From assembly GCF_030296555.1 (NCBI RefSeq), contig NZ_AP027728.1:1798001-1862000 (forward strand): DNA of 64,000 nt, in the 5' to 3' direction. The stretch is from Microbacterium suwonense. Lineage in GTDB: Bacteria > Actinomycetota > Actinomycetes > Actinomycetales > Microbacteriaceae. A model generated the notes under the pieces. It saw only the letters and a list, made by a program, of their open reading frames with translations, had not been told where the DNA came from and made no database searches. A program made the translations under genes and the position numbers. Below are positions 27,496-50,590 of this stretch, in pieces (within the stretch, counting starts at the first letter, position 1; every line of letters begins with the position of its first letter).

Positions 27496-27587
27496 GGCAC
27501 CCCCTCGACGTTGAGAAGCATATCGGATGTATGGATCTATCTATGTTCATGATAATCTTAGTTATTCGTCAATGGAGAGGAAGCGGA

Positions 27588-29763: not shown

Positions 29764-29764
29764 G

Positions 29765-30635: not shown

Positions 30636-31850
30636 TCAGATCACACCGGCTGTGCGCAGCCGATCGAGTTCTTCCGCGCTTCGCGCCAGCATCTCTCCGT
30701 AGACCTGCTGATTGTGCTCACCCAGCGCAGGTGCGGAATGCCGCACAGCGCCCGGGTGATTGACCATGCGCGGCACGACGTTCTGCATGCGCACCTCACC
30801 CAGATCGGGGTCATCCACGGTGACGACAGCATCGAGCTCGCGGTAAGTCGGATCCTTGAGGATGTCCTCGACGGAAAAAATGGCGGATGCCACTACTTCG
30901 AGGCGCTCCATCTCATCCAGGCACTCTGCGAGCGTGTGCGCGGAGATCCACTCCGCGAGCAGTGCATCCAGGTGCTCTCGCCGCTCGGCCTGCATGGCTG
31001 AGGTCGCGTAGTCCTCCACATGCTGCCCGAGCAGCTCGGCGACGTTGCGGACGGACCGCGGGGTCCCGGATGTCACGGTCATCCACTCGCCGTCACCCGT
31101 CCGGAACGTGTTGATCACCGCGGCGGGCGCGGCCTGAAGGCTGTTGCCCACGCGTTCCGGGCTCCGCCCGAGCTGGTCGTGGAAGATGACCTGCCATTCG
31201 ATGAGCCTGTAGAGCGACTCGAACAGCGACAGGTCGATCCACTCGCCCTGGAAATCGGGATCGTGGTCCCGTCGGTACAGCGCTGCCATGATCGCGTAGG
31301 CGCCCATGAGACCCGTGACTGAGTCGCCATGGGAGAAGCCGGTGTGCACCGGCGGGCCGTCCGGGAATCCGGTGATGTTCACGACGCCGCTCATCGCCTC
31401 GCCGACCTTGCCGAATCCGGGGCTGTTGCGCTTGCTCGACACCAATCCGAATCCGGTGACCTGCAGCATGATCAACCGAGGGTTGATGCGCTGCAGGCTG
31501 GTGAAATCGAGTTGCCAGCGCTCGAGTGTCGCCGCGCGGAAGTTCACGATGACGACGTCGGCCCAGCGCACCAGATCCCGTGCGAGCTCACGCCCCTCCT
31601 CGTTGCGGAGATCCAGAGTCACCGAACGCTTGTTCCGCGCTGACACCTTCCACCAGAGATGAATGCCGTTCTTCGTCGGGCCCGCTTTGCGCTGCGGGTC
31701 GCCGTGCGCGGGGTCCTCCACGTGCACGACGTCCGCGCCGAGGTCCGCCAGCAGCGTGCCCGCCAGCGGGCCGGCGATCACATGGGCGAACTCGACGACC
31801 TTCAACCCGCTCAGCGTGGCGTTGTCTTTTCCCTTGTCAGTGATATTCAT
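30636..31850 (-). CDS. Family III (CaiB/BaiF) CoA-transferase
   Basis: 404-residue CoA-transferase with the N-terminal VVEFAHVIAGPLAGTLLADLGADVVHVE block, the KRSVTLDLRNEEG stretch, and the GEWIDLSLFES segment typical of the family. Family III enzymes activate carboxylates such as carnitine, oxalate, mesaconate, itaconate or benzylsuccinate using another CoA thioester. Neighbours are a mesaconyl-CoA-hydratase-like MaoC protein and two CitE-type lyases, the same trio used for itaconate or mesaconate breakdown. Start ATG 31850; the longer open frame has no homology-like content. Confidence 0.92.
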   Translation of the reverse strand: MNITDKGKDNATLSGLKVVEFAHVIAGPLAGTLLADLGADVVHVEDPAHGDPQRKAGPTKNGIHLWWKVSARNKRSVTLDLRNEEGRELARDLVRWADVVIVNFRAATLERWQLDFTSLQRINPRLIMLQVTGFGLVSSKRNSPGFGKVGEAMSGVVNITGFPDGPPVHTGFSHGDSVTGLMGAYAIMAALYRRDHDPDFQGEWIDLSLFESLYRLIEWQVIFHDQLGRSPERVGNSLQAAPAAVINTFRTGDGEWMTVTSGTPRSVRNVAELLGQHVEDYATSAMQAERREHLDALLAEWISAHTLAECLDEMERLEVVASAIFSVEDILKDPTYRELDAVVTVDDPDLGEVRMQNVVPRMVNHPGAVRHSAPALGEHNQQVYGEMLARSAEELDRLRTAGVI

Positions 31851-31894
31851 TGATCCATTCCCATCCGTTTCGCGTGCGGCTCTCCGTCGAGCCG

Positions 31895-32425
31895 TCACAC
31901 CGCCCAGTCCGACACCGGATCAGGGAAGACACTCGCCGCCTGAGGTGCGGTGCGCCGGTACATCATGAATGTCCGCAGGTACTGCACGACGGTCTCGCCG
32001 CGCTGGTTGATCCCTCGCGTGCGGATCGAGACGATCCCCTGGTGCGGCCGCGACTGCGATTCGCGTTTGCCTATGACCTCGCTCTCAGACCAGAGGGTGT
32101 CGCCGGCGAACACCGGCGTAGGCATCGAGATCGAGTCCCATGCGAGGTTGGCCATGGCGTTCTCACTCGTATCCGCGACGGAGAGACCGACCACGATCGA
32201 CAGAGTCAGGCACGAATTGACCAGCGGCTCCTTGAACTCGGTCTTCGCCGCGAACTCCGCGTTGAAGTGCACCTGGTTCGTGTTTCCGGTCAACAGGGTG
32301 AACCAGGTGTTGTCGACCTGATCGATCGTGCGTCCGAGCCGGCTCCGGTAGACGTCGCCCACTTCCATGTCTTCGAAGTACCGCCCGCGCCATTCCTTGG
32401 GCGCCATCGGCTCCATCTCATCCAT
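31895..32425 (-). CDS. MaoC-family hydratase, mesaconyl-CoA hydratase-like
   Basis: 176-residue hot-dog fold hydratase. The segments NTNQVHFNAEFAAKTEF, PLVNSCLTLSIVVGLSVADT, TPVFAGDTLWSESEV and RESQSRPHQGIVSIRTRGIN follow the pattern I know from mesaconyl-CoA and related hydratases that sit next to CitE-like lyases. It would hydrate a branched enoyl-CoA so that the lyase can cleave the resulting hydroxyacyl-CoA. It overlaps the upstream lyase gene by 8 bp. Subfamily assignment rests on motif memory, not on a search. Confidence 0.85.
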   Translation of the reverse strand: MDEMEPMAPKEWRGRYFEDMEVGDVYRSRLGRTIDQVDNTWFTLLTGNTNQVHFNAEFAAKTEFKEPLVNSCLTLSIVVGLSVADTSENAMANLAWDSISMPTPVFAGDTLWSESEVIGKRESQSRPHQGIVSIRTRGINQRGETVVQYLRTFMMYRRTAPQAASVFPDPVSDWAV

Positions 32426-33265
32426 TTCGTTCTGCCTCCTCCATCCGTCGCGCCCGCGCGAGGATCTGTTGGGCCCGCATGATCACGGGTCGATCGACAA
32501 ATGCTCCATCGGGAGCGATACCCACGCCGGAGACGCTCTCCGCCATTGCGCGCGCGATCTCGACCACTTCACGGGCTCGATCGACGGTCGCGATGTTCGG
32601 GGTGTGCTCGTCGTTCGCGATCCCGACCTGGTCGGGATGAATGCATGCTTTCGCGCTGAACCCCAACGCACTCCCCCGCCGCGTCGACACGCGCATGCCC
32701 TCGGGGTCTCTGACATCGAGATGCACGGCGTCGATGGGTGCCTCGATTCCCGCCGCTGCTGATGCCATCGCGAGTCTGGCGCGCGGGTAGGCGAGTTCGG
32801 TCTCCGCAAGGGTGAGCTCCAGCCCGAGATCGGCTGCGAGGTCCGCCGAGCCCAGCATGAGTCTGCGGACTCGGGGTCCTGCGCGACGGCCAGCGCCTCC
32901 TCTACACCGATCGCCGTTTCGATCAGGGCGATCAGGGGCCCCGGCACCTCGCTTGCGTTCGGAAGGCCGGAACGCGATGCCTTCGGCACCATGACGGCGG
33001 CCAGACCTCCGAGTTCCTCCATCAGGTCCCGATCGTCGGCCCACCATGCTGTGTCGACGCCGTTAGGTCGGATCACGATCGGCTTGAGCCCCCACGCGGA
33101 GGTGTCGAGGCGTCGAAGCACCGCGCGCGCCTCACTCTTCATCTCGGGGTGAACGGCATCCTCCAGGTCGATCACCACCGCATCGGCAGGGCTCCGGAGC
33201 GCCTTCTCGATGCGCCCCTCGTCGATCGCTGAGACGAAGAGCAATGATCGCCACCCGTACTCCAC
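32418..33265 (-). pseudogene. CitE-like hydroxyacyl-CoA lyase, frameshifted
   Basis: Second CitE/HpcH-type lyase of the operon. Seen are RSLLFVSA at the N terminus, VVIDLEDAVHPEMK (metal ligand), KPIVIRPNG, LIALIETAIGVEEAL, LMLGSADLAADLG and the late KACIHPDQVGIAN. The frame breaks at the GGGG run 32873-32876; one added base reads QDPRVRRLMLGSADLAAD and gives about 282 residues. Start GTG 33265 has a near-perfect AGGAGGT seven bases upstream. First gene of the five-gene CoA module; GATAATGATAAT sits upstream as a probable -10 region. Confidence 0.85.
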
Positions 33266-33380
33266 TGTTAACACCTCCTGTTCCGAATTATCATTATCAC
33301 GAATTTTTGGACACACGATCCCGCCGTTCTCCAGACCGAAACAGGCTCGCGCCGCTCACCGGCGCCGGGTCATTCCTTGA

Positions 33381-33572
33381 CTAGCTCTGGAGTTCGATGG
33401 CGAGGGCGGGGCACATCGCGGCAGCCCGCTCCACCTCGTCGAGGTCGCCCTCATCGATGACGTCCTGCTTGAGGATGACGAGACCGTCGTCATCGAGGTC
33501 GAAGTACTTGGGCGATACTGCCACGCAGTTACCGGCGCCGATGCAGCGCTCTCGGAAGATCTCGATTGCCAT
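33381..33572 (-). CDS. [3Fe-4S] ferredoxin of P450 system
   Basis: 63-residue bacterial ferredoxin. The cluster ligands are C10, C16 and C54 in CIGAGNC and MCPALAI; the position of the usual second Cys is Ala13, the signature of a three-iron cluster. It is encoded 31 bp downstream of the P450 in the same orientation, as in many actinobacterial CYP105-type systems, and should carry electrons from the reductase at 27.6 kb. Confidence 0.94.
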   Translation of the reverse strand: MAIEIFRERCIGAGNCVAVSPKYFDLDDDGLVILKQDVIDEGDLDEVERAAAMCPALAIELQS

Positions 33573-33603: not shown

Positions 33604-34833
33604 TCACCACGTGATCGGGAGCGCCTTGACGCCGTAGATCATCGAATTGCGGAACTCGATCTGCCCTTCAGGCACAGCGAGCGCGAGATTCGGGAAGCGC
33701 TTTAGCAGGCGCGTGAACGCCACCTGAAGTTCGAGTCGGGCAAGATTCTGCCCGAGGCACTGATGGATCCCGAAACCGAAAGCGACGTGGTCACGCGCGT
33801 CGCGAGTGATGTCAAACCGATGCGGGTCCGTGAAGACCTCTGGATCGTGGTTCGCCGCCGGAACCGGCGCGAGTATGCCCGACCCGGCAGGGATGACCTG
33901 ATCGCGGATGGCCACGTCCTCCGTGGCCACGCGCGAAGCGACGTGATGCGCGACGGACAGGTAGCGCAGCATCTCCTCGATCGCAGATGTCGCGAGGCCC
34001 TCGTCGGCGCGGAGCATCGCCGCCTGATCCGGGTGACGCAGCAACAGGATCGTACCGAGCGCGAGCATGTTCGCCGTCGTGTCGAAGCCGCCGACGATGA
34101 GCAGATTCAGGATGCCGAGCAGCCCCGAGTTCTCGATGTTGCCGGCCTCGAGCTGCTCGGTGACGAGCTTGCCGACCAGGTCGTCGGTGGGGTTCTTGAT
34201 GCGCTGCTGGACGAGGTCGTCGAGGTACGCGGTCATCTCGGCTGCTGCAGCGGCAGACACCGCAGGCGGGCTGTCCAGGTCCATCCAGCGGTTGACCATG
34301 TCGAGCAGACCCGGCCCCTCGCTCTCCGGGAGTCCGAGGATCTCGCAGATCGCGATCGAAGGAAGCGGCTCGGCGAACACGGTGAGGAAGTCGACAGGGG
34401 CACCGTCCGCGCCGAGCTCTGCCATACGGTCCAACAGCAGATCCACGACGCGCTCGACGAACGGACGCAGCTTCGCGACCTCGGGAACGGACAGGGCACG
34501 AGCGACCATCCGCCGCTGCCGAAGGTGCTCGGCGCCGTCCATGCGGATGAACCCGCGCTGAGATCCGCGCGAGGCCTCGTGGTTCGCGCTGGAGTTCGGA
34601 TACCCGGGGATGCTGGAATTCGCCGACATCGCGGGGTTGCGAAGCAGGTTGCGGATATCCTCATGCCGGGTGGCCATCCACGCCTGCGAGTCGTTCCACA
34701 GCCGCACTGGCGTCACACCGCCGGACGCGCGCGCCTCATCGAAATCCGGGGCCGGAAGCAGGGGATCCTGCCGGGTGAACGGCCACTTGTACTCTCGTGT
34801 TACCGCAGCGGATGCTTTTGTGCTGGTAGACAT
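33604..34833 (-). CDS. Cytochrome P450
   Basis: 409-residue soluble bacterial P450. Heme ligand Cys359 lies in FGFGIHQCLGQNLA, the I-helix oxygen-activation motif is GGFDTT (248-253), and ExxR is E287-R290. RMDGAEHLRQRRMVARAL is the usual C-helix region. Start ATG follows AGGAGACACCG. The gene is followed by its ferredoxin, and the island contains a 6-oxocamphor-hydrolase-like enzyme and carveol-dehydrogenase-like SDR. Hydroxylation of a cyclic terpenoid-like substrate is therefore the best hypothesis. The promoter shares a 16-mer with the promoter at 25.7 kb. Confidence 0.95.
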   Translation of the reverse strand: MSTSTKASAAVTREYKWPFTRQDPLLPAPDFDEARASGGVTPVRLWNDSQAWMATRHEDIRNLLRNPAMSANSSIPGYPNSSANHEASRGSQRGFIRMDGAEHLRQRRMVARALSVPEVAKLRPFVERVVDLLLDRMAELGADGAPVDFLTVFAEPLPSIAICEILGLPESEGPGLLDMVNRWMDLDSPPAVSAAAAAEMTAYLDDLVQQRIKNPTDDLVGKLVTEQLEAGNIENSGLLGILNLLIVGGFDTTANMLALGTILLLRHPDQAAMLRADEGLATSAIEEMLRYLSVAHHVASRVATEDVAIRDQVIPAGSGILAPVPAANHDPEVFTDPHRFDITRDARDHVAFGFGIHQCLGQNLARLELQVAFTRLLKRFPNLALAVPEGQIEFRNSMIYGVKALPITW

Positions 34834-34870: not shown

Positions 34871-34880
34871 TCGAGGGGTG

Positions 34881-35403: not shown

Positions 35404-36749
35404 TCAGAGGCGCTCGGCGCCCTGAGTCACAGCTCCTGCCGCATCGTCGCGCACGTCTTCCCCCAGAGGATCGACCGCTCGACGACGCAGCACGACCACG
35501 CCGATCGCGGCGATGGCACTCACGGCCGCCGAGATGATCGCGAGCGTCGGCCATGATCCGCCCTCGGCGATTATCCAGGTCGCGACGAACGGCGTGAAAC
35601 CACCCGCCAGCGCCCCCAGTTGCATGCCGACCGAGATCCCGGTCACACGCACATCCGTGCGGAACATCTCGGAGTAGTACGCGGGCACCACACCGACGAT
35701 GGCGGCCTGGCCGAAGTTGAGTACGGCCATCATGCCCAGGAAGACCCAGAACGGCATGACCGTGTGAAGACTCAGGAAGAACGCGAACAGGAAGGCACTC
35801 TGCAGAATCAGCCCGATGATCAGCACGGGCTTTCGACCGATGCGATCGGAGAGCGCCCCCACAGGATCATCGCGACGACATTCGTCAGCGTGACGATGGT
35901 CAGCGAGTGCAGAAGATACTCGTTGACGAGGACGTCGATGCTGTAGGCGTAGTTCAGTGAGAAAACTGTCACGAGGTAGAACGCGATGTTCTGCGCCGCG
36001 AAGACGAACATGCTGACGAGGATCGCCTTCGGATGCTTGCGGAAAACCTCGACGAACGGCAGTCGCCGTACCTGCTTGTCCGTCGCGGCTTGCGCCTTGA
36101 CGAAGTCCTCCGGCTCGGCGATCGAGCGGCGGACGACGAAGCCGACGAGGAGCACGACGATGCTCGCCAGGAAGGGGATGCGCCACCCCCAGGCCGCGAA
36201 CTGGTCTTCGGGCAGAAGGACGACCATCGCGAATATGAACGATCCGAGCGCGGTACCGGCGTTGGTCCCGGCTGTCGAGAACGCGCCGAGGAAGCCGCGT
36301 CGTCGCCGCGGCGCCGCCTCGACCGCGAGCGCAGCCGCCCCGCCGAGCTCGCCGCCCGCGGCGAGCCCCTGGATGATGCGCAGCACCACAAGCAGAACTG
36401 GCGCAAGCAGGCCGACCTGCGCGTAACTGGGCAGCAGCCCCATGCAGAATGTCACGCCGCCCATTAGCCACAGCGTGAGCACCAGCATCCGCTTCCGGCC
36501 GTATCGGTCGCCGATGTGCCCGAACAGCACGGCGCCGGCGGGCCGGGCGAGGAAGGCCACACCGAACGTGGCGAACGCCGCGAGTGTGCCGGTGACGGGA
36601 TCGAGGTCGGGGAAGAACAACTTCGGGAAGACGAGCGCGGCTGCAGCCCCGTAGATGAAGAAGTCGTAGAACTCCATCACTCCGCCGACGAAGCTGGCCG
36701 CGGCTGATCGCTTCGCCTGAGAGCCGATCTGGCCCGTTCGATTTGTCAT
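35404..36749 (-). pseudogene. MHS-type MFS transporter, frameshifted
   Basis: Twelve-helix metabolite:H+ symporter of the shikimate/alpha-ketoglutarate (MHS) group. FDFFIYGAAAAL-like helix 1 (EFYDFFIYG), the loop GHIGDRYGRKRMLV between helices 2 and 3, RIIQGLAAGGELGGA, and the second-half repeat DRIGRKPVLI are visible. The frame breaks at the CCCCC run 35856-35860; one more base joins ILWG to ALSDRIGRKP and gives about 448 residues. It probably imports the island's substrate or an acid intermediate. It is convergent with the HtaA gene with a 7-bp gap. Confidence 0.88.
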
Positions 36750-36777: not shown

Positions 36778-37947
36778 TCAGTTGTCAGCCAGCACGCGCG
36801 CCGCGATGACTATCTGCTGAATCTCGTTCGTGCCCTCTCCGAGCACGAGCAGCGGAGCGTCGCGATACAGACGCTCGACCATGAACTCCTGGGAATACCC
36901 GTACCCGCCGTGGATGCGCATGGCCTCCGATGCGTTCTCCATCGCCACCTCGGTCGCGAAGAGCTTCGCCATGCCCGCTTCCAGGTCGGCACGCGCACCG
37001 GTCGCCTTCAGTTCCGCGGCTTCAAGCATGAGCAACTCCGCGGCGCGGAGGTTCGTCGCCATCTTGGCGATCTTCATCTGGATCGCCTGGTGCTTCGCGA
37101 TGGGCTTGCCGAAGGTCTCGCGCTCCTTCGCGTACTTGACGGCCTGCTCGAGTGCGCAGGTGGCCAAGCCCACCGCGCGCGCCGCGACATTCACCCGACC
37201 GAGTTCGACCGCCGCCATGAACTGCTTGAACCCCTGGCCGACCATCTCCTCGCCTCCGAGCACGGCTGTGGCCGGAACGCGGAACCCGTCGAACACGATC
37301 TCGGTGGACTCCACGCCCTTGTACCCCAGCTTCTTGAGCTGCGGAGGCACGGTGATGCCAGGCTGTTCCGACACCGACGGCTCCTTCTCGATGAGGAACG
37401 CCGTCATGCCTCGGTGGCGCGGCTCGGCCGTGGGGTCCGTGACGGTGAGGATCATGGCGAGGTCTGCGCGCAGGCCGTTCGTCGCCCACATCTTCTGGCC
37501 GGTGATCACGTATTCATCGCCGTCGCGCACCGCACGCGTGCGGATCGCCTGGACGTCGGACCCTGCATGCGGCTCGGTCATCGAGTACGCGCTGCGGCTC
37601 TCCCCGGTTGCCATGCGCGGGAGATACGTCGCCTTCTGCTCCTCAGTGCCGTAAGTCATCAGCATCCACGCCGCCATGAAGTGGGTGTTGATGACTCCCG
37701 AAAGCGAGATCCATCCGCGGGACAGTTCCCGCACGATCAGGGCATACGTGTACAGATCAAGGCCCAGGCCCCCGAACTCCTCGGGGATCGTGATGCCGAA
37801 CAGGCCGATCTCCTTCATCTGCTCGACGAGATCGGTAGGGAATTCGTCGGCGTGGTCGAACTTCGACGCGACCGGCAGAACCTCCCTGTCCACGAACTCG
37901 CGAACCAGGGCAACAAGTTCTTTTTGCTCGGCCGTCAATTCCTTCAT
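36778..37947 (-). CDS. Acyl-CoA dehydrogenase
   Basis: 389-residue FAD-dependent acyl-CoA dehydrogenase. AYSMTEPHAGSDVQAI and TGQKMWATNG are the FAD/substrate motifs, GVESTEIVFDGFRVP follows, and the C-terminal RIHGGYGYSQEFMVERLYRDAPLLVLGEGTNEIQQIVIA contains the usual catalytic Glu (GEGTNEIQ). It should introduce a double bond into a saturated acyl-CoA, giving an enoyl-CoA for the MaoC-type hydratase of the island. ATG follows AGGAG. It is 28 bp upstream of the MHS transporter gene. Confidence 0.93.
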   Translation of the reverse strand: MKELTAEQKELVALVREFVDREVLPVASKFDHADEFPTDLVEQMKEIGLFGITIPEEFGGLGLDLYTYALIVRELSRGWISLSGVINTHFMAAWMLMTYGTEEQKATYLPRMATGESRSAYSMTEPHAGSDVQAIRTRAVRDGDEYVITGQKMWATNGLRADLAMILTVTDPTAEPRHRGMTAFLIEKEPSVSEQPGITVPPQLKKLGYKGVESTEIVFDGFRVPATAVLGGEEMVGQGFKQFMAAVELGRVNVAARAVGLATCALEQAVKYAKERETFGKPIAKHQAIQMKIAKMATNLRAAELLMLEAAELKATGARADLEAGMAKLFATEVAMENASEAMRIHGGYGYSQEFMVERLYRDAPLLVLGEGTNEIQQIVIAARVLADN

Positions 37948-38043
37948 CGGAACGCTCCTGTCTGGCGCATGGAATCCTCGTCAATTTCATTGCTTCGTAC
38001 TATGATAATGGATCGATGGAACCAGAAATACCATTGGAGCGCA

Positions 38044-39336
38044 ATGTCTGCTGAAACCGAGCCCGCCCGCGCGGCGGCTGACCTCCTGCGCGGACGCTCT
38101 ACGGTCACGATCATGACCGCGATGTCACCGCAGGAACCGCATTCGGCGATCCGCAAGCTCCTGGCCGAGGCGCGCCGCTTCGACATCGAGGTCACCCTGT
38201 TGACGGCCTGCATCGATGGCTCGCTCGCGTACCTCACGGATGAGGACGTCATCTCGATCCGGGAGCGTCGGCTCCATCTGGTGACGCTGGCCGGCGGGGT
38301 TCCCCGAGCGCTCGGGGCGCTGGCCGACAGCATCCCCCAGTCGCTGTGGAACATCGATCGCATGCTGCAGGACGGGACGATCGCGTGCGACATCTATGTC
38401 GTGCGCGCGACCGCGACGCCCGAGGGCGGAATCGACGTCGGAGCCGCAGTCGCATTCACCCCCACGATGCTCGCCCAGCCGGCGGTGCAGACGATCGTCG
38501 AATTGGATGCGACGGGGCCGCACGGTCTCTGCGACGATAACCTCGACTGGAGTCGCTGCCTGGTCTGGGCATCGGATGAGCTTCACGGTGACGAAGCAGC
38601 ATCGCCGGAGCCTGCCGCGCGGGCGGGTTCGGCTGCCGACCCCGCGCAGGTGCGGATCGCCGAGCACGTCGCGCAATTGGTTCCCGAGGATGCGACGGTC
38701 CAACTGGGCATCGGGTCACTGGCGGATGCCATCGCGACGGCGCTGCGGACCGGTCCGTCGGCCGGCATCCATTGCGGCTCCGTTCCCGGCGGTGTGCTGA
38801 TGCGGATTCGCCAGGGCGAATTCGCCCGCGCGACCGACCACGCGGATGCCGGGCTGCAGATCGCCACCAGCCTCGCCGAGACGCCGGCGAGGTCGGGGCA
38901 CCGTGTCCCGGACAGCGTCCGGCTGCGACCGATCGGGTATACGCACGACCCGGAAGTGCTCGCCGGCATCCCCGTGCTGTGGGCGATCAACTCCGCCCTG
39001 AGCATCGACGTCCGGGGGCAGGTGAACTCGGAATGGATCTCCGGCGCTCGCGTGGCATCGGCTGGCGGGCTGAGGGACTTCACGGCCGGGGCGCAGCGCT
39101 CATCGGGCGGCGGGTCCGTCGTCGCGCTGCCGTCACGAACCCGTTCCGGTCACTCGCGCATCCTCGCGATGCTCGAAGCACCCGCGGCGGTGTCCGCGGG
39201 CGGTCACGAGGTCGGCTATCTGGTCACAGAGTACGGCGTCGCGACGCTGCACGGGCGCACGCAGGCGCAGCGAGCTGAGAGCATCATCGCCATCGCTCAT
39301 CCTGACGACCGCGATGCCCTCAGCCGCGGAGTCTGA
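38044..39336 (+). CDS. Acetyl-CoA hydrolase/transferase family protein
   Basis: 430-residue CoA-transferase of the Cat1/4-hydroxybutyrate CoA-transferase family. The N-terminal domain is relatively divergent; the C-terminal AcetylCoA_hyd_C domain is clear (GIHCGSVPGG, WAINSALSIDVRGQVNSEW, GGLRDFTAGAQRSSGGGSVVALP, GYLVTEYGVATLHGRT). It may recycle CoA from a product such as acetate or a branched acid. ATG at 38044 is preceded by GGAG; TATGATAATG at 38001 is a probable -10 region shared in style with other island promoters. Confidence 0.85.
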   Translation: MSAETEPARAAADLLRGRSTVTIMTAMSPQEPHSAIRKLLAEARRFDIEVTLLTACIDGSLAYLTDEDVISIRERRLHLVTLAGGVPRALGALADSIPQSLWNIDRMLQDGTIACDIYVVRATATPEGGIDVGAAVAFTPTMLAQPAVQTIVELDATGPHGLCDDNLDWSRCLVWASDELHGDEAASPEPAARAGSAADPAQVRIAEHVAQLVPEDATVQLGIGSLADAIATALRTGPSAGIHCGSVPGGVLMRIRQGEFARATDHADAGLQIATSLAETPARSGHRVPDSVRLRPIGYTHDPEVLAGIPVLWAINSALSIDVRGQVNSEWISGARVASAGGLRDFTAGAQRSSGGGSVVALPSRTRSGHSRILAMLEAPAAVSAGGHEVGYLVTEYGVATLHGRTQAQRAESIIAIAHPDDRDALSRGV

Positions 39337-39339
39337 CGG

Positions 39340-39639
39340 TTACCCCGTGGGGAAATCGGCCCCGGCGAGCGCGACGGGCTCGAGCGCGTGGATCCGGGCG
39401 CTCACTGCCACATGGTCGGGGTGCGCGAGATAGGCCGCCAAGCGCCCCTGGTCCTCGAACACACCATACAGAGCGATCTTGTGCTGCAGAGCGCCGTCGG
39501 CACCGCGCGCAACACCCGCGCTCAGCGAGACGACACCCGGAAGAGCTGACAGCGCATTGATGTCCGCGCAGATGTCGTGCAGCGCGGTCAGCTCCGCCGA
39601 CTTCGGGTCGTACTGGACGATCGCGAGGTGCGCGATCAC
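39340..39639 (-). CDS. Dabb-domain protein (stress-responsive A/B barrel)
   Basis: 99-residue dimeric alpha+beta barrel protein. The beginning IAHLAIVQYDPK, the GVVSLSAGV strand and the HPDHVAVS segment fit the Dabb family. Relatives include monooxygenases without cofactor and olivetolic-acid-cyclase-like cyclases, so a small catalytic role is possible. The GTG start overlaps the stop of the SDR gene as GTGA, and the end is 3 bp from the convergent CoA-hydrolase gene. It is the last gene of the long ABC/SDR operon. Confidence 0.75.
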   Translation of the reverse strand: MIAHLAIVQYDPKSAELTALHDICADINALSALPGVVSLSAGVARGADGALQHKIALYGVFEDQGRLAAYLAHPDHVAVSARIHALEPVALAGADFPTG

Positions 39640-40601
39640 AGCGTGGCCTCGCTTCCGATGCCCGCCTTCTGCAGGAGGCGGTACTCGAATGCGTTGTCCA
39701 CGGCCTCGTAGTAGTCGAGCAGTCGGTGATCCGCATCTTGCTGGCCCATGACCGCGCTCCAGTTGTCGCGCACCTTCTCGGGAGTGATGGTCGGGTCGGC
39801 GAATCCCAGCGGCGACGCGTAGACCAGAACGGCCACGCGGCCGCCGCTGATGCTGAACGCCTGGCCGGTGGCGGGGCACTCGTCCGACGCGAGGATACAC
39901 GCGCCGAGAGCGATGTGGTCGGGGCCGGTATATCGCTCCATGTAGTCGAGAGTGGTCGTGCCGGGGATCACCGGAGCGACCATCCGCGTCACGGCAAGCG
40001 GGAGAATCGCGTTGGCTTTGATGCCGTGCGCGGCACCGGCACCGGCCATCTGACGGGTGGCGGCGATCACCGCACCCTTGGCGATCGCGTACGAGCCGTA
40101 CCAGGTGCCGTCCGGCTGCACGAAACCAAGCGCGCCGGCGGAACTGGTGTTGACGATCCGGCCGTAACCCTGCGCCGCCATGTGCGGCCACGCGGCGCGC
40201 ACCGTCATCAGCTGGCCTTCGAGGTGAACGGCCATATGCGACTGGTAGGCGGGACCCGGCTCATCCTGAATGGCGTCGGCAGCGTTAATTCCGGCATTGT
40301 TGACGATGATGTCGATCCGGCCCCATTCGTCGATAGCCTGCTGCACCATCTCGTCGGCGCCTGCCGCGTCGGCGACGCTGCCGCGGTTGGCGATCGCCTC
40401 TCCGCCGAGAGCGACGATCTCGTCGACCACGGCCTGAGCACGATCGTCGTCCTCGGCCTCATTCTTGATCGACACCGCGTAGTCGTTGACCACGACCTTC
40501 GCCCCTCGTGAGGCGAGGGTCAGTGCGTGCGCTCGACCGATCCCGCCGCCAGCACCGGTGACGAGAGCCACTCGGCCGTCGAATCGAATCTCTGCTGACA
40601 T
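39636..40601 (-). CDS. SDR, 3-hydroxyacyl-CoA dehydrogenase (HSD17B4-like)
   Basis: 321-residue SDR. The cofactor motif is TGAGGGIGRAHAL, NNAG is intact, and the active site is Ser in NTSSAG with YAIAK. The long insert after strand 2 (NDYAVSIKNEAEDDDRAQ) and the C-terminal extension of about 50 residues resemble the dehydrogenase domain of multifunctional enzyme 2, which oxidises 3-hydroxyacyl-CoA. It could act after the MaoC-type hydratase. ATG follows GGGAG. Confidence 0.88.
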   Translation of the reverse strand: MSAEIRFDGRVALVTGAGGGIGRAHALTLASRGAKVVVNDYAVSIKNEAEDDDRAQAVVDEIVALGGEAIANRGSVADAAGADEMVQQAIDEWGRIDIIVNNAGINAADAIQDEPGPAYQSHMAVHLEGQLMTVRAAWPHMAAQGYGRIVNTSSAGALGFVQPDGTWYGSYAIAKGAVIAATRQMAGAGAAHGIKANAILPLAVTRMVAPVIPGTTTLDYMERYTGPDHIALGACILASDECPATGQAFSISGGRVAVLVYASPLGFADPTITPEKVRDNWSAVMGQQDADHRLLDYYEAVDNAFEYRLLQKAGIGSEATL

Positions 40602-40648: not shown

Positions 40649-41710
40649 CTACTTGACTACTCCGGTCTCCGACCGGCGCACCGTCACCAGGACTGCGAAC
40701 AGGACGATCACGCCGAAGATGACCGTCTGGTAGTTCGGATCGACCTGGGTCAGGGTCATGCCGTTGGTCACAATCCCGAGCGTAAGCACGCCGATGACCG
40801 TGCGCAACGGCCCGCCGCTGCCACCGCTGAGTGCCGTGCCACCCATGACTACCGCAGCGATCGCGTTGAGCAGGAAGGGGCCGCCCATGCCCGGCGATGA
40901 TCCGCCGCCCTGGCCGATGAGCATGAGGCCGCCGATTCCGGCGACCAGGCCCGAGAGCCCGAACATCCACAGCTTGGTGCGAGACACCGGCAATCCGGAG
41001 AGCCGCGCGACCCGCTCGTTGCCGCCGATCGCGTAGATGTGACGGCCGAACGGGGTGCGATATGCGATCACCGACATCACGATCAGCGCGAGCACGGCCC
41101 ACCAGATGACGTTTGGGATGCCGAGGACATCCGCCCCGTTGACGAGGCCGTCGAGCAGCGGATGATCCATGAACACCGCCGCTCCTCCCGTGAGACGCAG
41201 GGCCAAACCGTCGAAGATGAAGAGCGTGCCCAAGGTCGTCAGGAACGACGGGAGCTTCGCATACGCGACAAGCACACCGTTGACCAGGCCGCACACCAGA
41301 CCGATCGGCAGCGCGAGCCATATCAGCCCGGGGTTGCCAGCCGCGGTCATGATCACAGCGAGCGTGCCGGTGAGGGCCGCGACAGCGCCGACCGACAGGT
41401 CGATGCTTCCGGACAGGATCACGATAGTCGAGGACAGGGCGAGCACCATGAGCACAGACGACGCGCGCAGGATGTTGAGGAGGTTGTCGGGCGTGAGGAA
41501 CGCCGGGCTCAGCGCACTGAACAGAATCATGAGGCAGATGACGAGCGCGTACGGCAGCAGCCGGGCTCCCCACCGCCGCCAGAAGGACTCGCGGATCTGC
41601 CTCGTCGCGACGAGTCCGGTCGCCTCTCTAGGCTCGGGGAGGTGCGCGTCCTCAACGGGATGCTCCGCGGATTCCGCCGTGTTGATCGACTGCTCTGTCG
41701 ACATGGTCAT
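40649..41710 (-). CDS. ABC transporter permease (RbsC type)
   Basis: 353-residue permease of the ribose/xylose/autoinducer-2 importer family with 8-10 hydrophobic segments. Family marks are GSIDLSVGAV, the KLPSFLTTLGTLFIFDG stretch, and GGTALSGGSGGPLRTVIGV near the end. It overlaps the ATPase gene by 4 bp. Such carbohydrate-class importers also move polyols, furans and other hydrophilic small molecules. In this operon the cargo may be a glycoside or hydroxylated form of the catabolic substrate (inference). Confidence 0.93.
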   Translation of the reverse strand: MTMSTEQSINTAESAEHPVEDAHLPEPREATGLVATRQIRESFWRRWGARLLPYALVICLMILFSALSPAFLTPDNLLNILRASSVLMVLALSSTIVILSGSIDLSVGAVAALTGTLAVIMTAAGNPGLIWLALPIGLVCGLVNGVLVAYAKLPSFLTTLGTLFIFDGLALRLTGGAAVFMDHPLLDGLVNGADVLGIPNVIWWAVLALIVMSVIAYRTPFGRHIYAIGGNERVARLSGLPVSRTKLWMFGLSGLVAGIGGLMLIGQGGGSSPGMGGPFLLNAIAAVVMGGTALSGGSGGPLRTVIGVLTLGIVTNGMTLTQVDPNYQTVIFGVIVLFAVLVTVRRSETGVVK

Positions 41711-43254
41711 ACCATCCTCGCTACTATGGTCTCTTCTGTGAGCCCGGGGACCTCTGCGGTCCCCCACTCGTGCACCAATCGGCCGTCCTTCATGACTGCC
41801 AGACGATCGCTCATGCCGATGAGCTCACGCATATCGTCGCTGATCATCAGAATCGCGAGTCCTGCGGCGACAGATTCACGGAGGAGACTGTAGATCTCCT
41901 GGCGCGCTCCGACGTCGACGCCGCGTGTCGGATTGTCGAGCACCAGTACACGAGCACCCGACGACACGAGCCGGGCGAGCATCACCTTCTGCTGATTGCC
42001 GCCGCTTAGGGAGCCCACCAGCGTGCCATCGCCTGGGGCGACGATCCGGTGGCGGCTCATCGCCGTCGCGACATCCGCCTTCTCCCGCTTGGATGACAGC
42101 AGCCCTCCGCGAGTGAATCGCTTCAGGCTCGACCACGTCGTGTTCCAGCGGATCGACTGGAACATGCTCACGCCCTCGGCGTGCCGGTCCAGCGGCCCGT
42201 ATCCGATGACGCCGAGCCTCGACACGGCGCGCCCGCTGGGCATCGCCCGGCCGACCGCTTCGATCGCGCCGACCGAGCTGATATCGCCCGCAATGGCTCC
42301 CGCAAGGTGCGACTTGCCGCATCCTGTGAGACCGCCGATGCCGTAGATCTCTCCTGCACGCACGTCGAGCGTCACGTCGGCGAAATGACCGGGGACGCCG
42401 AGGCGATCGACTTTGAGCGCCACAGCACCGAAATCGCCGGTGCGCTTGTCTTCAAGATAGTGATTGGCTTCACGATCGCGGCCGACCATCAGCCGATGGA
42501 GTTCTTCCTCATTCGTGTCGGCTGAGGCGCGTTCAGCGACAACTTTCCCGTCCTTGAGCACATAGATGCGGTCGCAGATCTCGAGGATCTCGTTCAGGCG
42601 GTGGCTCACGAACACGTACGTCGCCGCGCCCCGCGTGGAGCGCACGAAGGAGAACAGTTCGGCGACCTCGTCCTGGTCGAGCGACGCTGTCGTCTCATCC
42701 AGCAGCACCACAGGATGGTCCTGGCCCAGAAGCTCTGCGACGGCGAACGCTCGGGTGATCTCGACGAGCTGCCGTTGGTCAAGGGCGAGTTCGCCGACCA
42801 TCGAGCGCGCATCGATTCCTGACCCGATCACGTCTCTGCCCGAGAGGTGTCGCTGCGCTGCCGCCCTCATCTGCCCCGTCTGCAGCACGCCAGCACGGGT
42901 GAAGTGGCGTTCGTGCCCGAGGTAGAGGTTCTCCGTCACCGAGAGATTACCGATCAGCCCCTGATCCTGGTGGGCACGGAACACACCGCGGCGGTTCGCC
43001 TCACCGTACGACCCGATGTCACGCACGCCGCCTGCGGTCTCGACGTATCCGGTCGAGGGCTGCTCGGAGCCCGACAGGATGCTCAGCAGCGTCGACTTGC
43101 CCGCGCCGTTCTCACCCACCAGGCCGATGATCTCGCCCCGACGAATGGCCAGCGATACGTCGTCGAGCGCACGAACCCCCGGGTAGACACGGCCCACCCC
43201 GTGGGCGGCGAGGACGGTGTCCACGTCGGTCGGGGCGATCGTCTGGCTATTCAT
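41707..43254 (-). CDS. ABC transporter ATP-binding protein (RbsA type)
   Basis: 515-residue protein with two fused nucleotide-binding domains. NBD1 has Walker A GENGAGKST, a poor signature (GELALDQRQLVEI) and Walker B VVLLDETTASLD. NBD2 has Walker A GLTGCGKSH, the strong signature LSGGNQQK and Walker B VLVLDNPTRGVD. Asymmetric domains of this kind are normal for RbsA. It overlaps the OCH-like hydrolase gene by ATGA and the permease gene by 4 bp. Confidence 0.94.
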   Translation of the reverse strand: MNSQTIAPTDVDTVLAAHGVGRVYPGVRALDDVSLAIRRGEIIGLVGENGAGKSTLLSILSGSEQPSTGYVETAGGVRDIGSYGEANRRGVFRAHQDQGLIGNLSVTENLYLGHERHFTRAGVLQTGQMRAAAQRHLSGRDVIGSGIDARSMVGELALDQRQLVEITRAFAVAELLGQDHPVVLLDETTASLDQDEVAELFSFVRSTRGAATYVFVSHRLNEILEICDRIYVLKDGKVVAERASADTNEEELHRLMVGRDREANHYLEDKRTGDFGAVALKVDRLGVPGHFADVTLDVRAGEIYGIGGLTGCGKSHLAGAIAGDISSVGAIEAVGRAMPSGRAVSRLGVIGYGPLDRHAEGVSMFQSIRWNTTWSSLKRFTRGGLLSSKREKADVATAMSRHRIVAPGDGTLVGSLSGGNQQKVMLARLVSSGARVLVLDNPTRGVDVGARQEIYSLLRESVAAGLAILMISDDMRELIGMSDRLAVMKDGRLVHEWGTAEVPGLTEETIVARMV

Positions 43255-44012
43255 CAGAGATCGAGGGCGGCAAGGGCCTCGAACGCGAGGCCGTGCCCGA
43301 GGTTCGTCTGCATCGTCGTCCGCAGGTCGCGGTTCAGCACTTCACGCGAGTAGCGCAGCGCGAGCATGCTCTTGGCCGCCATCTCGCCGGCGATCTCGAG
43401 CGCTCGCGACAGTGACTGCCCCTGCGGGACGACCTCGTTCACGACGCCTGCCGCCTTGGCCTCCGAAGCGCTGAGCTTCTCTCCCGTGAGCAGGAAGTAG
43501 CTCCCGCGACGCTGGCCCATCGCGTTGATCCACGCGGTGTGGACACCGTCCCCCGGCACGATCCCGTTGACGAAGTGCGCGGCATCCTGGAAGTACGTGT
43601 TCTCGGTCGCGACGACGACGTCCGCCAGGATCGCGATCTCCGAGTGGATGCTCGCGGGCCCGTTGACCGCGGATATGACCGGCACGCGGATCGCCAGCAG
43701 ATTGTTCAGAAGGCGCTGGCCCTCGTAGACGCTGTTGTCCCAGTCGAGCGGGCCATTGAGCACGAAGCTCGAGAAGTCGATGGCTTCGCAGTACGCGTCG
43801 CCCGCCCCGGTAAGCACGACGACCTTGGTCTCCGGGTCCGTGCCGATCTCGGCGAACGCGTACGCGAGCTCGTCATGGACAAGGCTGTCCCACACGAGGG
43901 ACCCGCCGTCGGTGTGCAGAGTGACGACGAGGATTCCCTGGTCGTCACGTTCCATCTTGATGCGCTTGTACTTGTTCTGGTACGCGGCCAGACGCGGGGC
44001 GACTGATGACAT
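43254..44012 (-). CDS. 6-oxocamphor hydrolase-like beta-diketone hydrolase (crotonase fold)
   Basis: 252-residue crotonase-superfamily protein. It matches my recollection of Rhodococcus 6-oxocamphor hydrolase (OCH/CamK) along its whole length. Every catalytic or pocket residue reported there recurs with a constant +1 offset: W41 (OCH W40), F83 (F82), H123 (H122), H146 (H145), D155 (D154) and E245 (E244). Signature stretches are HTDGGSLVWDS, HDELAYAF, EGQRLLNNLLAI and FVNGIVPGDGVH. OCH cleaves a non-enolisable beta-diketone by retro-Claisen hydrolysis and does not use CoA. ATG follows GAGGAG. The gene lies between a carveol-dehydrogenase-like SDR and ABC-transporter genes. Family highly likely; substrate inferred. 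Confidence 0.88.
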   Translation of the reverse strand: MSSVAPRLAAYQNKYKRIKMERDDQGILVVTLHTDGGSLVWDSLVHDELAYAFAEIGTDPETKVVVLTGAGDAYCEAIDFSSFVLNGPLDWDNSVYEGQRLLNNLLAIRVPVISAVNGPASIHSEIAILADVVVATENTYFQDAAHFVNGIVPGDGVHTAWINAMGQRRGSYFLLTGEKLSASEAKAAGVVNEVVPQGQSLSRALEIAGEMAAKSMLALRYSREVLNRDLRTTMQTNLGHGLAFEALAALDL

Positions 44013-44056: not shown

Positions 44057-44887
44057 CTATCGCGCCATCACACCGGCGTCGACGGGGACGGCCAGACCCG
44101 TGACGTACTTGCTGTCGTCGGATGCGAGCCATGCCACGGCCGCACTGATCTCCTCAGGAGCGAGGAATCCGCTCACCGGCATGGGGAGCATCGGGGTGAA
44201 CGAGCCCGCGAACAGCTTCGCGTCCGCGCCTTCGCCCTGCAGCAGCGCTGGGCCGGTCTTGTCGGTCGTGAGCGGTGTGGCCACCGGACCGGGGTTGATC
44301 GTGTTGACGCGGATGCCGTGCTCGGCGAGCTCCTGCGCCGCCACGGCGGCGAGGCCCTGCACTCCGTGCTTCGACGCCGCATAGGCGCCGGTGAACGGCA
44401 GACCCTTGATGCCCGAGACGGAACTGATGATGATGATCGATCCACCACGCTTCGCCTCGACCATTCGAGGCGCGAACGCCTGAATGGTGTTGAAGGTGCC
44501 GGTCAGGTTCACGCCCATGACCTGATCCCACACCTCTATCGGAGTCTCGAGCACTCGCCCGTACGCTCCCATCCCTGCATTCGCGACGAGAATGTCGAGG
44601 TGGGGGAACTCTTCGGCGGTCTCGTCCGCCACCCGCGCGAGCGCTTCGCGGTCACGGATATCCGCCTGAGCGGTGTGCGCCTTGCGGCCCAGCTCCCGCA
44701 CCAGGCGCGCGGTCTCCTCGAGCTCTTCGTTCGTACCCAGCGGGTACGCGACGTTAAGCTTCTGCCCTGCCAGGTCGAGCGCGATGATGTCTGCGCCCTC
44801 CGACGCGAGCCGGATGGCGTGGGCGCGTCCTTGACCGTGGGCGGCACCGGTGATCAGGGCGGTCTTGCCCTCGAGTCGAGCGTTCAT
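44057..44887 (-). CDS. Mycofactocin-coupled SDR (carveol dehydrogenase-like)
   Basis: 276-residue SDR. GAAHGQGRAHAIRLASEGADII at the N terminus, and the insert with YPLGTNEELEETARLV after strand 2, are the signature of the mycofactocin-dependent SDR family, which includes rhodococcal carveol dehydrogenase. These hold NAD tightly and pass electrons to mycofactocin. The active site Ser (ISSVSG) and YAASK are intact. It may oxidise the P450-made alcohol to the ketone hydrolysed by the OCH-like enzyme encoded next. ATG at 44887 follows GGAGG. Confidence 0.9.
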   Translation of the reverse strand: MNARLEGKTALITGAAHGQGRAHAIRLASEGADIIALDLAGQKLNVAYPLGTNEELEETARLVRELGRKAHTAQADIRDREALARVADETAEEFPHLDILVANAGMGAYGRVLETPIEVWDQVMGVNLTGTFNTIQAFAPRMVEAKRGGSIIIISSVSGIKGLPFTGAYAASKHGVQGLAAVAAQELAEHGIRVNTINPGPVATPLTTDKTGPALLQGEGADAKLFAGSFTPMLPMPVSGFLAPEEISAAVAWLASDDSKYVTGLAVPVDAGVMAR

Positions 44888-44922
44888 GCGTTCCTCCAAT
44901 TGCTGGGTCTTGTGGTGCGGCG

Positions 44923-46284
44923 TCAGTTTCGCGCCCCGGCGAGCGACAGGGCGCCGAGGACGTTGCCCTGGAACTCCGTCTTCTCACGGACAGAGCCGTA
45001 CGGATCCTCGAACTTCGATTCCCACAGCGCGTTGAGCGCATCCAGGCCGCCGTCCGATTCGAGTGCGGTCTGGTACGCCTCGGGCCATGCCCACCCGGCC
45101 GGCTGCTCCGTCGGGTTGACGCCCGCAGGCCCCCACTCCGTCTCGGCAGGATTCGGGATGACGCAGTGGTGCGGCGTGATCCAGTCGTCGCCGTTGAGGT
45201 GGCGCGACATCTTCGCGGCATCCCACAGAACCGGCTTGTCTTCTCCGGTGAGCTCGAGCAGCGCGGCTGCCGCGTCGGGCGTGTCGATGATGATCGCGTC
45301 CGTATCGATGAACGTTTCCAGCGGGTTCATCTCCACGCCATTGATGTAGTCGAACAGTCGAACCGCTCCGAGCACGCCCGAGAAGGCGATGAGACCCGCG
45401 GACGTCGCAACGATGCGGTCCTCCTTCGCCATCATTGCGAGGAACCCGGGATCGCCATCCATGCCGCACAGCAGAGCAGTGGTGTTGCGAGCCGCCTTGA
45501 GCGCCGCAAGCGCGCCAAGCGCGACGCCATCGTTCAGGCAGAGGACGAACTTGACATCCGGGTTGGAGGGCAGCAGAGTCTCCAACGCTGTTTGCGCTTT
45601 AGTGATGTCCCAGTCGGTGTACGCGTTGGCAACCAGCTTGACATCGGGGAACTCCTCGATCGCCTTCATCGCTCCGAAGCGACGCGCGGTCTCCGACAGC
45701 CCGCCCTTGGGGCCGCCGAGCAGGATCAGATCACCGGCGCCGCCACCGCGCTCGAGCAGGATCTTCGTGACGACGTACGACTCGTCCGCGAACGGCCCAC
45801 CGACGTTGCCGAGGAAGTGCCCGTCGAACTTGGGGTCCGCAGGCGAGAACCAGGGCAGCCGGTTAGAGAGGTTCTGGTACGCGATGCCGTCGTCCGCGAG
45901 AACCTTCGCATACCGATCGATGCTCGCATCTGCGACGAGGTAATTGAAGACGCCCTTGACCTCGAGTGCGCGGAACTGCTGCGCCTGAGACAGCGCCTTC
46001 TGCATGTCGCCATCGTGCGAGGTGAACGAGTTCCGAGCACCCAGGGCCGCTGCGGCTGCCGCGAAAGCACGGTCCGTTGAGTCGAACGCGGGAACGTTGG
46101 CGATCAAGTGGTCCATGAGTAGTGGCCCGTTCGCAGCGCCGCCTCCGGATGAGCCTGCACTCCCGCCGGCTCCTGTCGTGGCGCACGAGGCGAGAAGCCC
46201 TGCGCCGAGGGCGGTGATGCCGGCGACGCCGGCGATCCGGAAGACGTCTCTGCGTGAGAAGTCTCGCGGTGAGATGGGATTCAT
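44923..46284 (-). CDS. ABC transporter substrate-binding lipoprotein (sugar-type, Tat signal)
   Basis: 453-residue binding protein with a twin-arginine lipoprotein signal (FSRRDVFRIAGVAG, hydrophobic core, lipobox LLASC). The mature domain is a periplasmic-binding-protein type I fold (Peripla_BP_4-like: LILLGGPKGG, VKFVLCLNDGVALGALAAL). A C-terminal extension of about 100 residues, rich in Trp and Pro, is longer than in ribose-binding proteins and may adapt the pocket. ATG at 46284 follows AAAGGAG. Partner of the RbsA- and RbsC-type proteins downstream. Confidence 0.9.
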   Translation of the reverse strand: MNPISPRDFSRRDVFRIAGVAGITALGAGLLASCATTGAGGSAGSSGGGAANGPLLMDHLIANVPAFDSTDRAFAAAAAALGARNSFTSHDGDMQKALSQAQQFRALEVKGVFNYLVADASIDRYAKVLADDGIAYQNLSNRLPWFSPADPKFDGHFLGNVGGPFADESYVVTKILLERGGGAGDLILLGGPKGGLSETARRFGAMKAIEEFPDVKLVANAYTDWDITKAQTALETLLPSNPDVKFVLCLNDGVALGALAALKAARNTTALLCGMDGDPGFLAMMAKEDRIVATSAGLIAFSGVLGAVRLFDYINGVEMNPLETFIDTDAIIIDTPDAAAALLELTGEDKPVLWDAAKMSRHLNGDDWITPHHCVIPNPAETEWGPAGVNPTEQPAGWAWPEAYQTALESDGGLDALNALWESKFEDPYGSVREKTEFQGNVLGALSLAGARN

Positions 46285-46343
46285 AACAAACTCCTTTGTT
46301 GTCATCAATGATGTGAGACGGGCGTTCGGGTCGCGCGTCCGGT

Positions 46344-46382: not shown

Positions 46383-47153
46383 CTACTTGGCGACGAACCC
46401 TCCGTCGACCGGCAGCGCTACACCGGTGATGAAGCTCGCCCGATCGCTGGCGAGGAACAGCGCCGCGTTCGCGATCTCCTCGGGCCGGCCCCGGCGGCCG
46501 AGCGGGATGTCGTTCTCGACCCAGTTATTCAGCCGCTGATCCAGGTTCTCGGTCGTCTCACGAGACCAGAACTGGGGCAGCATCGGGGTGTCGATCGGCC
46601 CAGGGCAGATCACGTTGACGCGAATCTTGGGGGCCAGCGAGAGCGCGAGCGCCTTCGCGTACATCACGACGCCGCCCTTGGCGAGCGAGTAGAGCGGGCT
46701 CAGCCCCGAGCCGACGAGCCCTGCGGTCGACGCAGTGAACAGAATCGACCCGGTGTGCTCGGACTTCTGCAGCAGCGGAATGCTCTGCTGTGCGACGAAG
46801 TAGGAACCCGTCATGTTGACGCCGATAGAGAAGTCGTACTGCTCGATGCTCACTTCGTGGCCGGTGGCACCGGGCGTTCCGGCGTTCGCGTAGACGATGT
46901 CCAACTTGCCGAACTGTCGATCGATGTCATCGATCACGGCCTGGATACGGCTCACGTCCGTGACATCCATCGCCACGGCGATCGCAGAGTTTCCGGCAGC
47001 CTCGATCTCGCTGACCACGGCCTGCGCGCCCTCGATGTTGAGGTCTGCCACGACGACCGTGGCGCCTTCCTGAGCCATCAGCAGTGCGCTCGCACGCCCC
47101 ATGCCCGACGCTGCGCCCGTGATGAGTGCAATCCTGCCGTCGAGTTCCTTCAT
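46383..47153 (-). CDS. SDR family oxidoreductase
   Basis: 256-residue classical SDR. TGAASGMGRASA binds the cofactor, and ADLN at the end of strand 2 (acidic Asp) favours NAD. ANAGTPG, Ser in FTASTAG and YSLAKGG form the active site. PGPIDTPMLP and the end FITGVALPVDGGFVAK are standard. It could oxidise a hydroxylated ring to the ketone in the island pathway. AAGGAGG precedes the ATG at 47153. It lies between the aldehyde dehydrogenase and binding-protein genes. Confidence 0.9.
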   Translation of the reverse strand: MKELDGRIALITGAASGMGRASALLMAQEGATVVVADLNIEGAQAVVSEIEAAGNSAIAVAMDVTDVSRIQAVIDDIDRQFGKLDIVYANAGTPGATGHEVSIEQYDFSIGVNMTGSYFVAQQSIPLLQKSEHTGSILFTASTAGLVGSGLSPLYSLAKGGVVMYAKALALSLAPKIRVNVICPGPIDTPMLPQFWSRETTENLDQRLNNWVENDIPLGRRGRPEEIANAALFLASDRASFITGVALPVDGGFVAK

Positions 47154-47188
47154 CTGATCCTCCTTGATCCGGACGCGTCGTAGTCGCG

Positions 47189-48691
<1,503 letters not shown>

Positions 48692-48822
48692 GTCAGAGAC
48701 ACTACATGATCCATGCAATTCAAGACAACTATCGTGTTCATGAATATAGATTGATGAGCGGCGGGGACCCGCACTATGATTAGCATGAAAGCTACGAACG
48801 CAGAACTAGGATTGAGGTTGCA
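48692..48822. promoter_or_regulatory. Divergent promoter region of ALDH operon and gntR
   Basis: AT-rich 131-bp gap. TTCATGAA (48737-48744) is a palindrome inside GTTCATGAATA, similar to GTTCATGATAA in front of the ferredoxin reductase gene. On the minus strand TTGTCT-N16-TGTAGT is a plausible promoter ending close to the ALDH start. The FadR-type regulator encoded here is the obvious candidate binder. Confidence 0.5.
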
Positions 48823-49623
48823 GTGACAATTACGTCCCGAGCAGATTCCGCCAGTCCGCCTGCCGCTCGGTCGGATTGGTCCCTTACTGCCACATCAGGC
48901 GCCCTAGGTCGGCAAGTGAAGACAGCGGAACGCGTCGCCTCGGCTATCGTCACGATGATTGCCGACACCCGGATGCAACCTGGCGACCGACTGCCCAATG
49001 AGTCGGAGATGCTTGAGCAATTCGGCGTCGGCCGCGGCTCACTCCGCGAAGCGCTGCGCATCCTCGAGATCTACGGCCTCATCAATCTAAAGTCAGGTCC
49101 GGGCGGCGGACCGGTGCTGCTCAATGTCGAACCGGGTGACGTGAGTCGCAGCTTCTCCCTCTATCTCCACCTTCGTGGTGCGACCATACAGGAGCTCGCA
49201 GATACGCGCTTGATACTTGACCCTCTGGCTGCTCGAATGGCTGCCGAGTCGATCACGCCCGAATCAGCGGCGCTCCTGCGGTCCACCCTGGAGCGCGAAG
49301 CAGAGTCGATCGGACAGAACCAGTCGGTGTTTTTCGCGGCGAACGACGTTCACTACGTCCTGGCGACAATGACCGGAAACCGAGTGTTCGATTTGGTCGC
49401 CACCGCACTGAAAGAGATGTATACGTCGCGGCTAGCCTTCACGGCGTTGGGTGAACGAGTGGCGCGACCTGAGGTGCACAACGACCACAAGCTGATCGGG
49501 GAGGCCGTTCTCGATGGCGACGCGGACCGGGCGGAGGAGCTTATGCGCGATCACCTCATATCCAGCCTCGGAAAAGCTCTGGAGTCCCCAGGATTTGCAG
49601 CGAGCACGATCGGCTGGGCCTGA
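48823..49623 (+). CDS. GntR family regulator, FadR/FCD type
   Basis: 266-residue regulator. After a 30-residue variable N terminus comes the winged HTH (RVASAIVTMIADTRMQPGDRLPNESEMLEQFGVGRGSLREALRILEIYGLI), then an all-helical FCD ligand domain (LADTRLILDPLAARMAAE, NDVHYVLATMTGNRVFDLV, DHKLIGEAVLDGDADRAEELMRDHLI) with the usual metal-binding Asp/His residues. Such proteins sense carboxylic acids and usually repress their own catabolic genes. It is at the end of the island and divergent from its longest operon, so it is the likely island regulator. GTG start. Confidence 0.92.
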   Translation: MTITSRADSASPPAARSDWSLTATSGALGRQVKTAERVASAIVTMIADTRMQPGDRLPNESEMLEQFGVGRGSLREALRILEIYGLINLKSGPGGGPVLLNVEPGDVSRSFSLYLHLRGATIQELADTRLILDPLAARMAAESITPESAALLRSTLEREAESIGQNQSVFFAANDVHYVLATMTGNRVFDLVATALKEMYTSRLAFTALGERVARPEVHNDHKLIGEAVLDGDADRAEELMRDHLISSLGKALESPGFAASTIGWA

Positions 49624-50417: not shown

Positions 50418-50423
50418 GTCGGC

Positions 50424-50590
50424 GATGCCGGCCCGTTCACGTTCGTCGCCGACGCCCACAATGAAAGTCCGAAAAGGCGAACGGGTGATCAACACCGTGG
50501 TGATCGCAACTGGCGTCAACGCCGACGGATGCGACGAGGTTCTCGACCTGCGCGTCGCGACTTCGCCGCCACACACGACCTCAATAGGCA
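50424..50590 (+). pseudogene. IS256-family transposase fragment
   Basis: Immediately after the IS5 remnant, GPFTFVADA and, after a frame change, MKVRKGERVINTVVIATGVNADGCDEVLDLRVATS match the central block of IS256-type transposases (pattern PFTFVAxDAL, KVREGGRV, ATGVNADGYREVLG). Only about 55 codons remain. The abrupt junction with the IS5 piece shows at least two rearrangements at this point. No gene is seen between here and 50707. Confidence 0.7.

Follow-up and report, generated by a model that had tools for sequence, protein, structure and literature searches.

A 64,000-nucleotide stretch of the Microbacterium suwonense genome (contig NZ_AP027728.1, positions 1,798,001 to 1,862,000; the window, with coordinates counted from its first letter) carries at 43254..44012, on the minus strand, a gene for a putative beta-diketone hydrolase of the 6-oxocamphor hydrolase (OCH) type. 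The gene starts with ATG, has GAGGAG upstream and encodes a 252-residue protein of the crotonase fold. We consider it probable, at roughly two chances in three, that within a conserved catabolic cluster the ring is opened by this enzyme, a relative of OCH and of the Anabaena beta-diketone hydrolase (ABDH, ALR4455); the reaction itself, the sequence of steps and the kind of substrate given below are inferred.

A phmmer search of the PDB returned OCH at the top (1o8u, E 4.5e-85; the OCH H122A mutant 1szo, E 1.1e-83), followed by ABDH (2j5g, E 5.2e-67), and hydratases began at about 1e-21. Of 251 residues aligned with OCH chain 1o8u, 136 are identical (54%). The original prediction had described the protein as an OCH homologue with six catalytic residues shifted by +1, and the alignment bears this out: W40, F82, H122, H145, D154 and E244 of 1o8u correspond to W41, F83, H123, H146, D155 and E245. 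Also conserved are H45, E124 and D142 of 1o8u (H46, E125 and D143). The homologue search yielded 2958 proteins at E values up to 1e-3 from 7999 scored candidates, and all nine active-site positions are identical throughout the best 120 of these 2958, query counted. Since all of these 120 carry the signature, the suggestion that the OCH family is rare was rejected for sequence collections; it holds only in that the family is little characterized. For comparison, 12 crotonase rows were aligned, five from the same genome (two of them weak matches) and seven encoded beside OCH relatives. H123, H146 or D155 is found in none of the 12, and the H123 position is Gly in all 13 other crotonase rows when an EchA15 sequence is added. 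Nor does the protein have the two catalytic Glu residues of enoyl-CoA hydratases (E144 and E164 in the rat enzyme); E125 keeps the first and H146 stands at the second.

In a tree built against coenzyme A (CoA)-dependent hydratases, as had been proposed, the hydrolase did not fall among them but grouped with OCH and ABDH against the crotonase paralogues (branch 96/96, with long branches flagged by the tree program). Within this group it belongs to a separate clade of 19 rows (support 100/100), while OCH groups instead with P0070 and P0115, which are 85% identical to it; by the tree, therefore, the protein lies outside the OCH clade proper. Its predicted structure is much nearer to OCH and ABDH than to hydratases. 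Sequence, residues, tree and predicted fold thus all support membership of the OCH/ABDH family; these tests are not fully independent of one another. Among the 60 solved matches listed, none but OCH and ABDH is named as a carbocycle-opening, CoA-free beta-diketone hydrolase, and to our knowledge few such enzymes have been described. ABDH (2j5g/2j5s) is 47% identical to the window hydrolase and has seven of the nine residues in common (H46, H123, E125, D143, H146, D155 and E245), but has F and L in place of W41 and F83. The EchA15-type crotonases 3qk8 and 3q1t are 27-29% identical; 3qk8 has the H46, D143, H146, D155 pattern, but with Gly at H123 and Val at E125. The catalytic residues of ABDH are given in PMC3584854 as D153, H144, E243 and H43, and 3q1t is predicted there to be a beta-diketone hydrolase. 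The curcuminoid hydrolase CurH, a curcumin beta-diketone hydrolase of Rhodococcus, is mentioned in PMC12981152.

The genes around the hydrolase were compared with those of other genomes by tblastn and blastp; of the four further clusters found, three were compared gene by gene, leaving out that of A. macrocephala. Besides the hydrolase, the cluster in the window consists of the following genes (SDR, short-chain dehydrogenase; ABC, ATP-binding cassette; MFS, major facilitator superfamily).

27369..28787, plus: ferredoxin reductase, with counterparts in the compared clusters
28871..29823, minus: HpcH/HpaI lyase-like gene, divided between two reading frames
29765..30607, minus: alpha/beta hydrolase, nearest to PcaD-type models, under cut-off
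30636..31898, minus: class III CoA transferase
31895..32425, minus: MaoC-type hydratase, nearest to RipB/Ich
32483..33316, minus: HpcH/HpaI lyase-like gene with internal frame changes, nearest to NCBIfam RipC/Ccl
33381..33572, minus: ferredoxin-like protein of 63 residues, identified visually and from its counterparts in two clusters, with no NCBIfam match at 1e-10
33604..34833, minus: cytochrome P450, nearest solved relatives CYP105-type
35404..36749, minus: MFS transporter, its gene divided between two reading frames in the assembly
36778..37947, minus: acyl-CoA dehydrogenase, with counterparts in the compared clusters
37951..39336, plus: CoA transferase/hydrolase with an AcetylCoA_hyd_C domain, start not fixed; matches to other CoA-transferase models are below cut-off
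39340..39639, minus: Dabb (stress-responsive alpha/beta barrel) domain protein
39636..40601, minus: SDR3; by coordinates, an SDR adjoins the permease in five of five cluster genomes
40649..41767, minus: ABC permease, Pfam BPD_transp_2
41707..43254, minus: ABC transporter double ATPase of the sugar (RbsA/AraG) type, whose ATG overlaps the hydrolase stop (TGATG)
44057..44899, minus: SDR1, mycofactocin-coupled type
44923..46308, minus: ABC substrate-binding lipoprotein with a C-terminal extension and, by eye, a Tat-like signal
46383..47189, minus: SDR2, start not fixed
47189..48718, minus: aldehyde dehydrogenase, nearest to TIGR04284, under cut-off
48823..49623, plus: GntR/FCD regulator, with counterparts in the three compared clusters

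The hydrolase gene is flanked by the same genes in Arthrobacter sp. MA-N2 (where the enzyme is 77% identical), Acrocarpospora pleiomorpha (68%), A. macrocephala (67%) and Frankia canadensis (62%). Thus the predicted linkage of the hydrolase to a P450 system, SDRs and a CoA module is confirmed and extends to four other genomes. All four clusters have the hydrolase, the importer's binding protein, ATPase and permease, SDR1, SDR2, the aldehyde dehydrogenase, the P450 and the ferredoxin reductase, as well as the class III CoA transferase, an HpcH/HpaI protein, the alpha/beta hydrolase and the acyl-CoA dehydrogenase, the last of these being linked in Frankia through 74-79% counterparts in the two other compared clusters. 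The three compared clusters all have the GntR regulator and MaoC (82% in Arthrobacter, 47-50% in the other two); the small ferredoxin is present in two and the MFS transporter in one, that of Arthrobacter. Strain MA-N2 came from a methylamine enrichment from Lake Washington, as related in PMC5023230. We found no account of the cluster in the open-licence PMC literature, a weak negative, as subscription papers fall mostly outside that scope. A cluster that is rarely seen yet conserved points to an undescribed pathway using a ring-shaped compound.

From the gene content, such a pathway may run as follows. A small cyclic compound would enter through the sugar-type ABC importer and the binding lipoprotein that belongs to it, and would then be hydroxylated by the P450 with ferredoxin and reductase. 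SDR1, of the carveol-dehydrogenase type, and SDR2/SDR3 would convert the alcohols to a diketone. The hydrolase would add water at one carbonyl of this cyclic 1,3-diketone and cleave the C-C bond (retro-Claisen) to give a keto acid without CoA. Degradation might be completed by the aldehyde dehydrogenase, the CoA transferases, the acyl-CoA dehydrogenase, the MaoC hydratase and the HpcH/HpaI lyase; by the chemistry of their families, the last three could convert a beta-methyl acyl-CoA to a tertiary 3-hydroxy compound, which a retro-aldol step would then cleave. An itaconate pathway was rejected. RipB and RipC of the RipABC system are the nearest NCBIfam models of MaoC and of one HpcH protein, but both scores are far below the cut-offs (for MaoC, 190 bits against the curated 340 of the RipB/Ich itaconyl-CoA hydratase model). 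A crotonase search of the genome gave six matches, of which only the hydrolase itself is in the window; with no other crotonase there, one ring opening may suffice in this cluster. Five loci with OCH relatives of 54-58% identity (L011, L013, L014, L015 and L016) encode a second crotonase with D, Y, N and W at the positions of E125, H146, D155 and E245, presumably resembling BadI/MenB-type enzymes, and perhaps a CoA-dependent second ring opener. One of these, L016, on plasmid pR8L1 of Rhodococcus sp. 008, resembles the window in its 58% identical hydrolase and in nearby P450, ferredoxin and SDR genes; it differs in having thiolases, AMP-binding proteins and further crotonases, and its incomplete gene table over 30.7 kb lists no ABC importer.

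Several observations weigh against a ring-opening role within this cluster as drawn above. A scan of genome contigs gave nine loci with hydrolase relatives, of which four carry the cluster with the importer; the other five (hydrolase 54-57%) have no permease or binding-protein match, and weak ATPase matches (28-29%) occur in two of them. The binding protein is of the ribose/allose type, which is odd for a hydrophobic terpenoid. Its family is very small and goes with the hydrolase clade, but its relatives P0135 and P0137 (48-49%) have no matching partner among the hydrolases listed (best 120 of 2958). Four residues are fixed in the clade and differ from OCH: D42, which adjoins W41 and is T in OCH, R17, R109 and L219. 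The substrate is therefore probably, judging from sequence, other than that of OCH. Finally, the MFS gene and both HpcH/HpaI genes are frameshifted in this strain. These breaks are directly visible in the sequence and relatives have single-frame counterparts, so that the island could be decaying and non-working here. We regard this as unlikely. The remaining listed cluster open reading frames (ORFs) are open, and for the assembly completeness and contamination are 96.14% and 3.88%, against 99-100% and 0% (rounded) in 17 listed genomes of the genus, which suggests that the breaks are small insertion or deletion errors of assembly.

Other substrates were weighed against the same evidence. In the 6-oxocamphor route, 6-hydroxylation and oxidation to the 2,6-dione precede ring opening by OCH, and a cluster degrading camphor, borneol or fenchone in this way would account for the 54% identity, the complete residue set, and the P450, ferredoxin, reductase and carveol-type SDR. 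It is nonetheless improbable that the hydrolase is a camphor OCH, and this identity was set aside on the separate clade and the gene context: the operon includes a sugar-type importer, which the original prediction had left unmentioned, and the window lacks a second crotonase. The nearest solved chains of the P450 are 2z36 and P450-SU1, which we take to be CYP105-type, with CYP105 names lower among the matches listed; no camphor or cineole P450 is named among the best 60 of 504 solved matches. The camphor- or cineole-like ketone of the original prediction is accordingly not supported. The Baeyer-Villiger route for camphor in Pseudomonas and the cineole routes are described in PMC4097962. A polar cyclitol- or sugar-like substrate, for instance a methylated one that the P450 would demethylate, with the diketone arising by oxidation of ring hydroxyls, would suit an ATPase, permease and binding protein that are all sugar-type, and SDR2 passes a subfamily model named glucose-1-dehydrogenase. 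Such a substrate seems to us quite improbable: the branched-acid-type CoA module and the carveol-type SDR would fit a terpenoid better, no sugar kinase or glycosidase family appears among the Pfam-scanned cluster genes, and W41 and F83 are as in OCH. We give equally little credence to action on the CoA thioester of a beta-diketone or beta-hydroxy acid, as a hydratase or CoA-dependent hydrolase following the CoA transferases. The hydrolase does match Pfam ECH_1, numerous CoA genes lie close by, and the H146/D155 pattern is common to an EchA15-type crotonase; yet H123 is replaced by Gly in the 13 other crotonases, the second catalytic Glu of hydratases is His here, the predicted structure lies much nearer to OCH/ABDH, and the gene is located in the import and oxidation operon.

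SDR1 scores 327 bits against the curated cut-off of 300 of the NCBIfam profile TIGR03971, its counterparts exceed this cut-off in all five cluster genomes (304-327 bits), and its nearest solved chains are mycobacterial carveol dehydrogenases. Mycofactocin-coupled SDRs are described in PMC5264612 as having non-exchangeable NAD and as occurring only alongside mycofactocin markers. MftC (TIGR03962) and the mycofactocin glycosyltransferase (TIGR03965) are over cut-off in two of the five genomes, A. pleiomorpha and F. canadensis; neither is over cut-off in the window's genome, Arthrobacter MA-N2 or A. macrocephala, where assembly gaps are possible. The MftC scores of these three are 34.5, 51.3 and 95.2 bits (cut-off 265), and 14 control genomes likewise give MftC matches below cut-off. 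Hosts that have such an SDR without the cofactor genes put the generalization published in PMC5264612 to the test.

The new points here are the separate hydrolase clade, the conserved importer-coupled cluster, and SDR1 without its cofactor genes. We tentatively suggest, as a quite possible reading, an undescribed, horizontally spread pathway, so far seen in this genome and in those of four actinobacteria. Its dedicated ABC importer, P450 and mycofactocin-type SDR would lead into the CoA-free retro-Claisen opening of a cyclic natural compound; the hydrolases would form a new orthologous group with its own specificity, and the SDR would work without mycofactocin in three of the five hosts. The tie of the clade to a conserved cluster and to a very small binding-protein family offers a direct handle on the substrate, and new retro-Claisenases are useful for chiral keto-acid synthesis. 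PDB matches barely cover the binding protein's C-terminal extension; this does not establish a new fold.

An ORF with an HtaA domain (57 bits) lies between the P450 and MFS genes (34836-35396, plus strand), and two adjacent SnoaL-like genes lie left of the cluster (25760-26739, plus strand); neither has a counterpart of at least 45% identity in the three compared clusters. On the other side, 49919-61897 (plus strand) encodes an IS4/5-type transposase followed by an M23 peptidase, an AAA_31/CbiA-type ATPase, a TraG/TraD-type coupling protein and SSB; these genes may belong to an integrative or conjugative element adjoining the island. A tRNA scan of the window found none, so no attachment site is shown. 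The region 724-14900 (minus strand), with two FAD_binding_3 flavoproteins, an alpha/beta hydrolase and a thiolase, is perhaps a separate catabolic region of the aromatic type.
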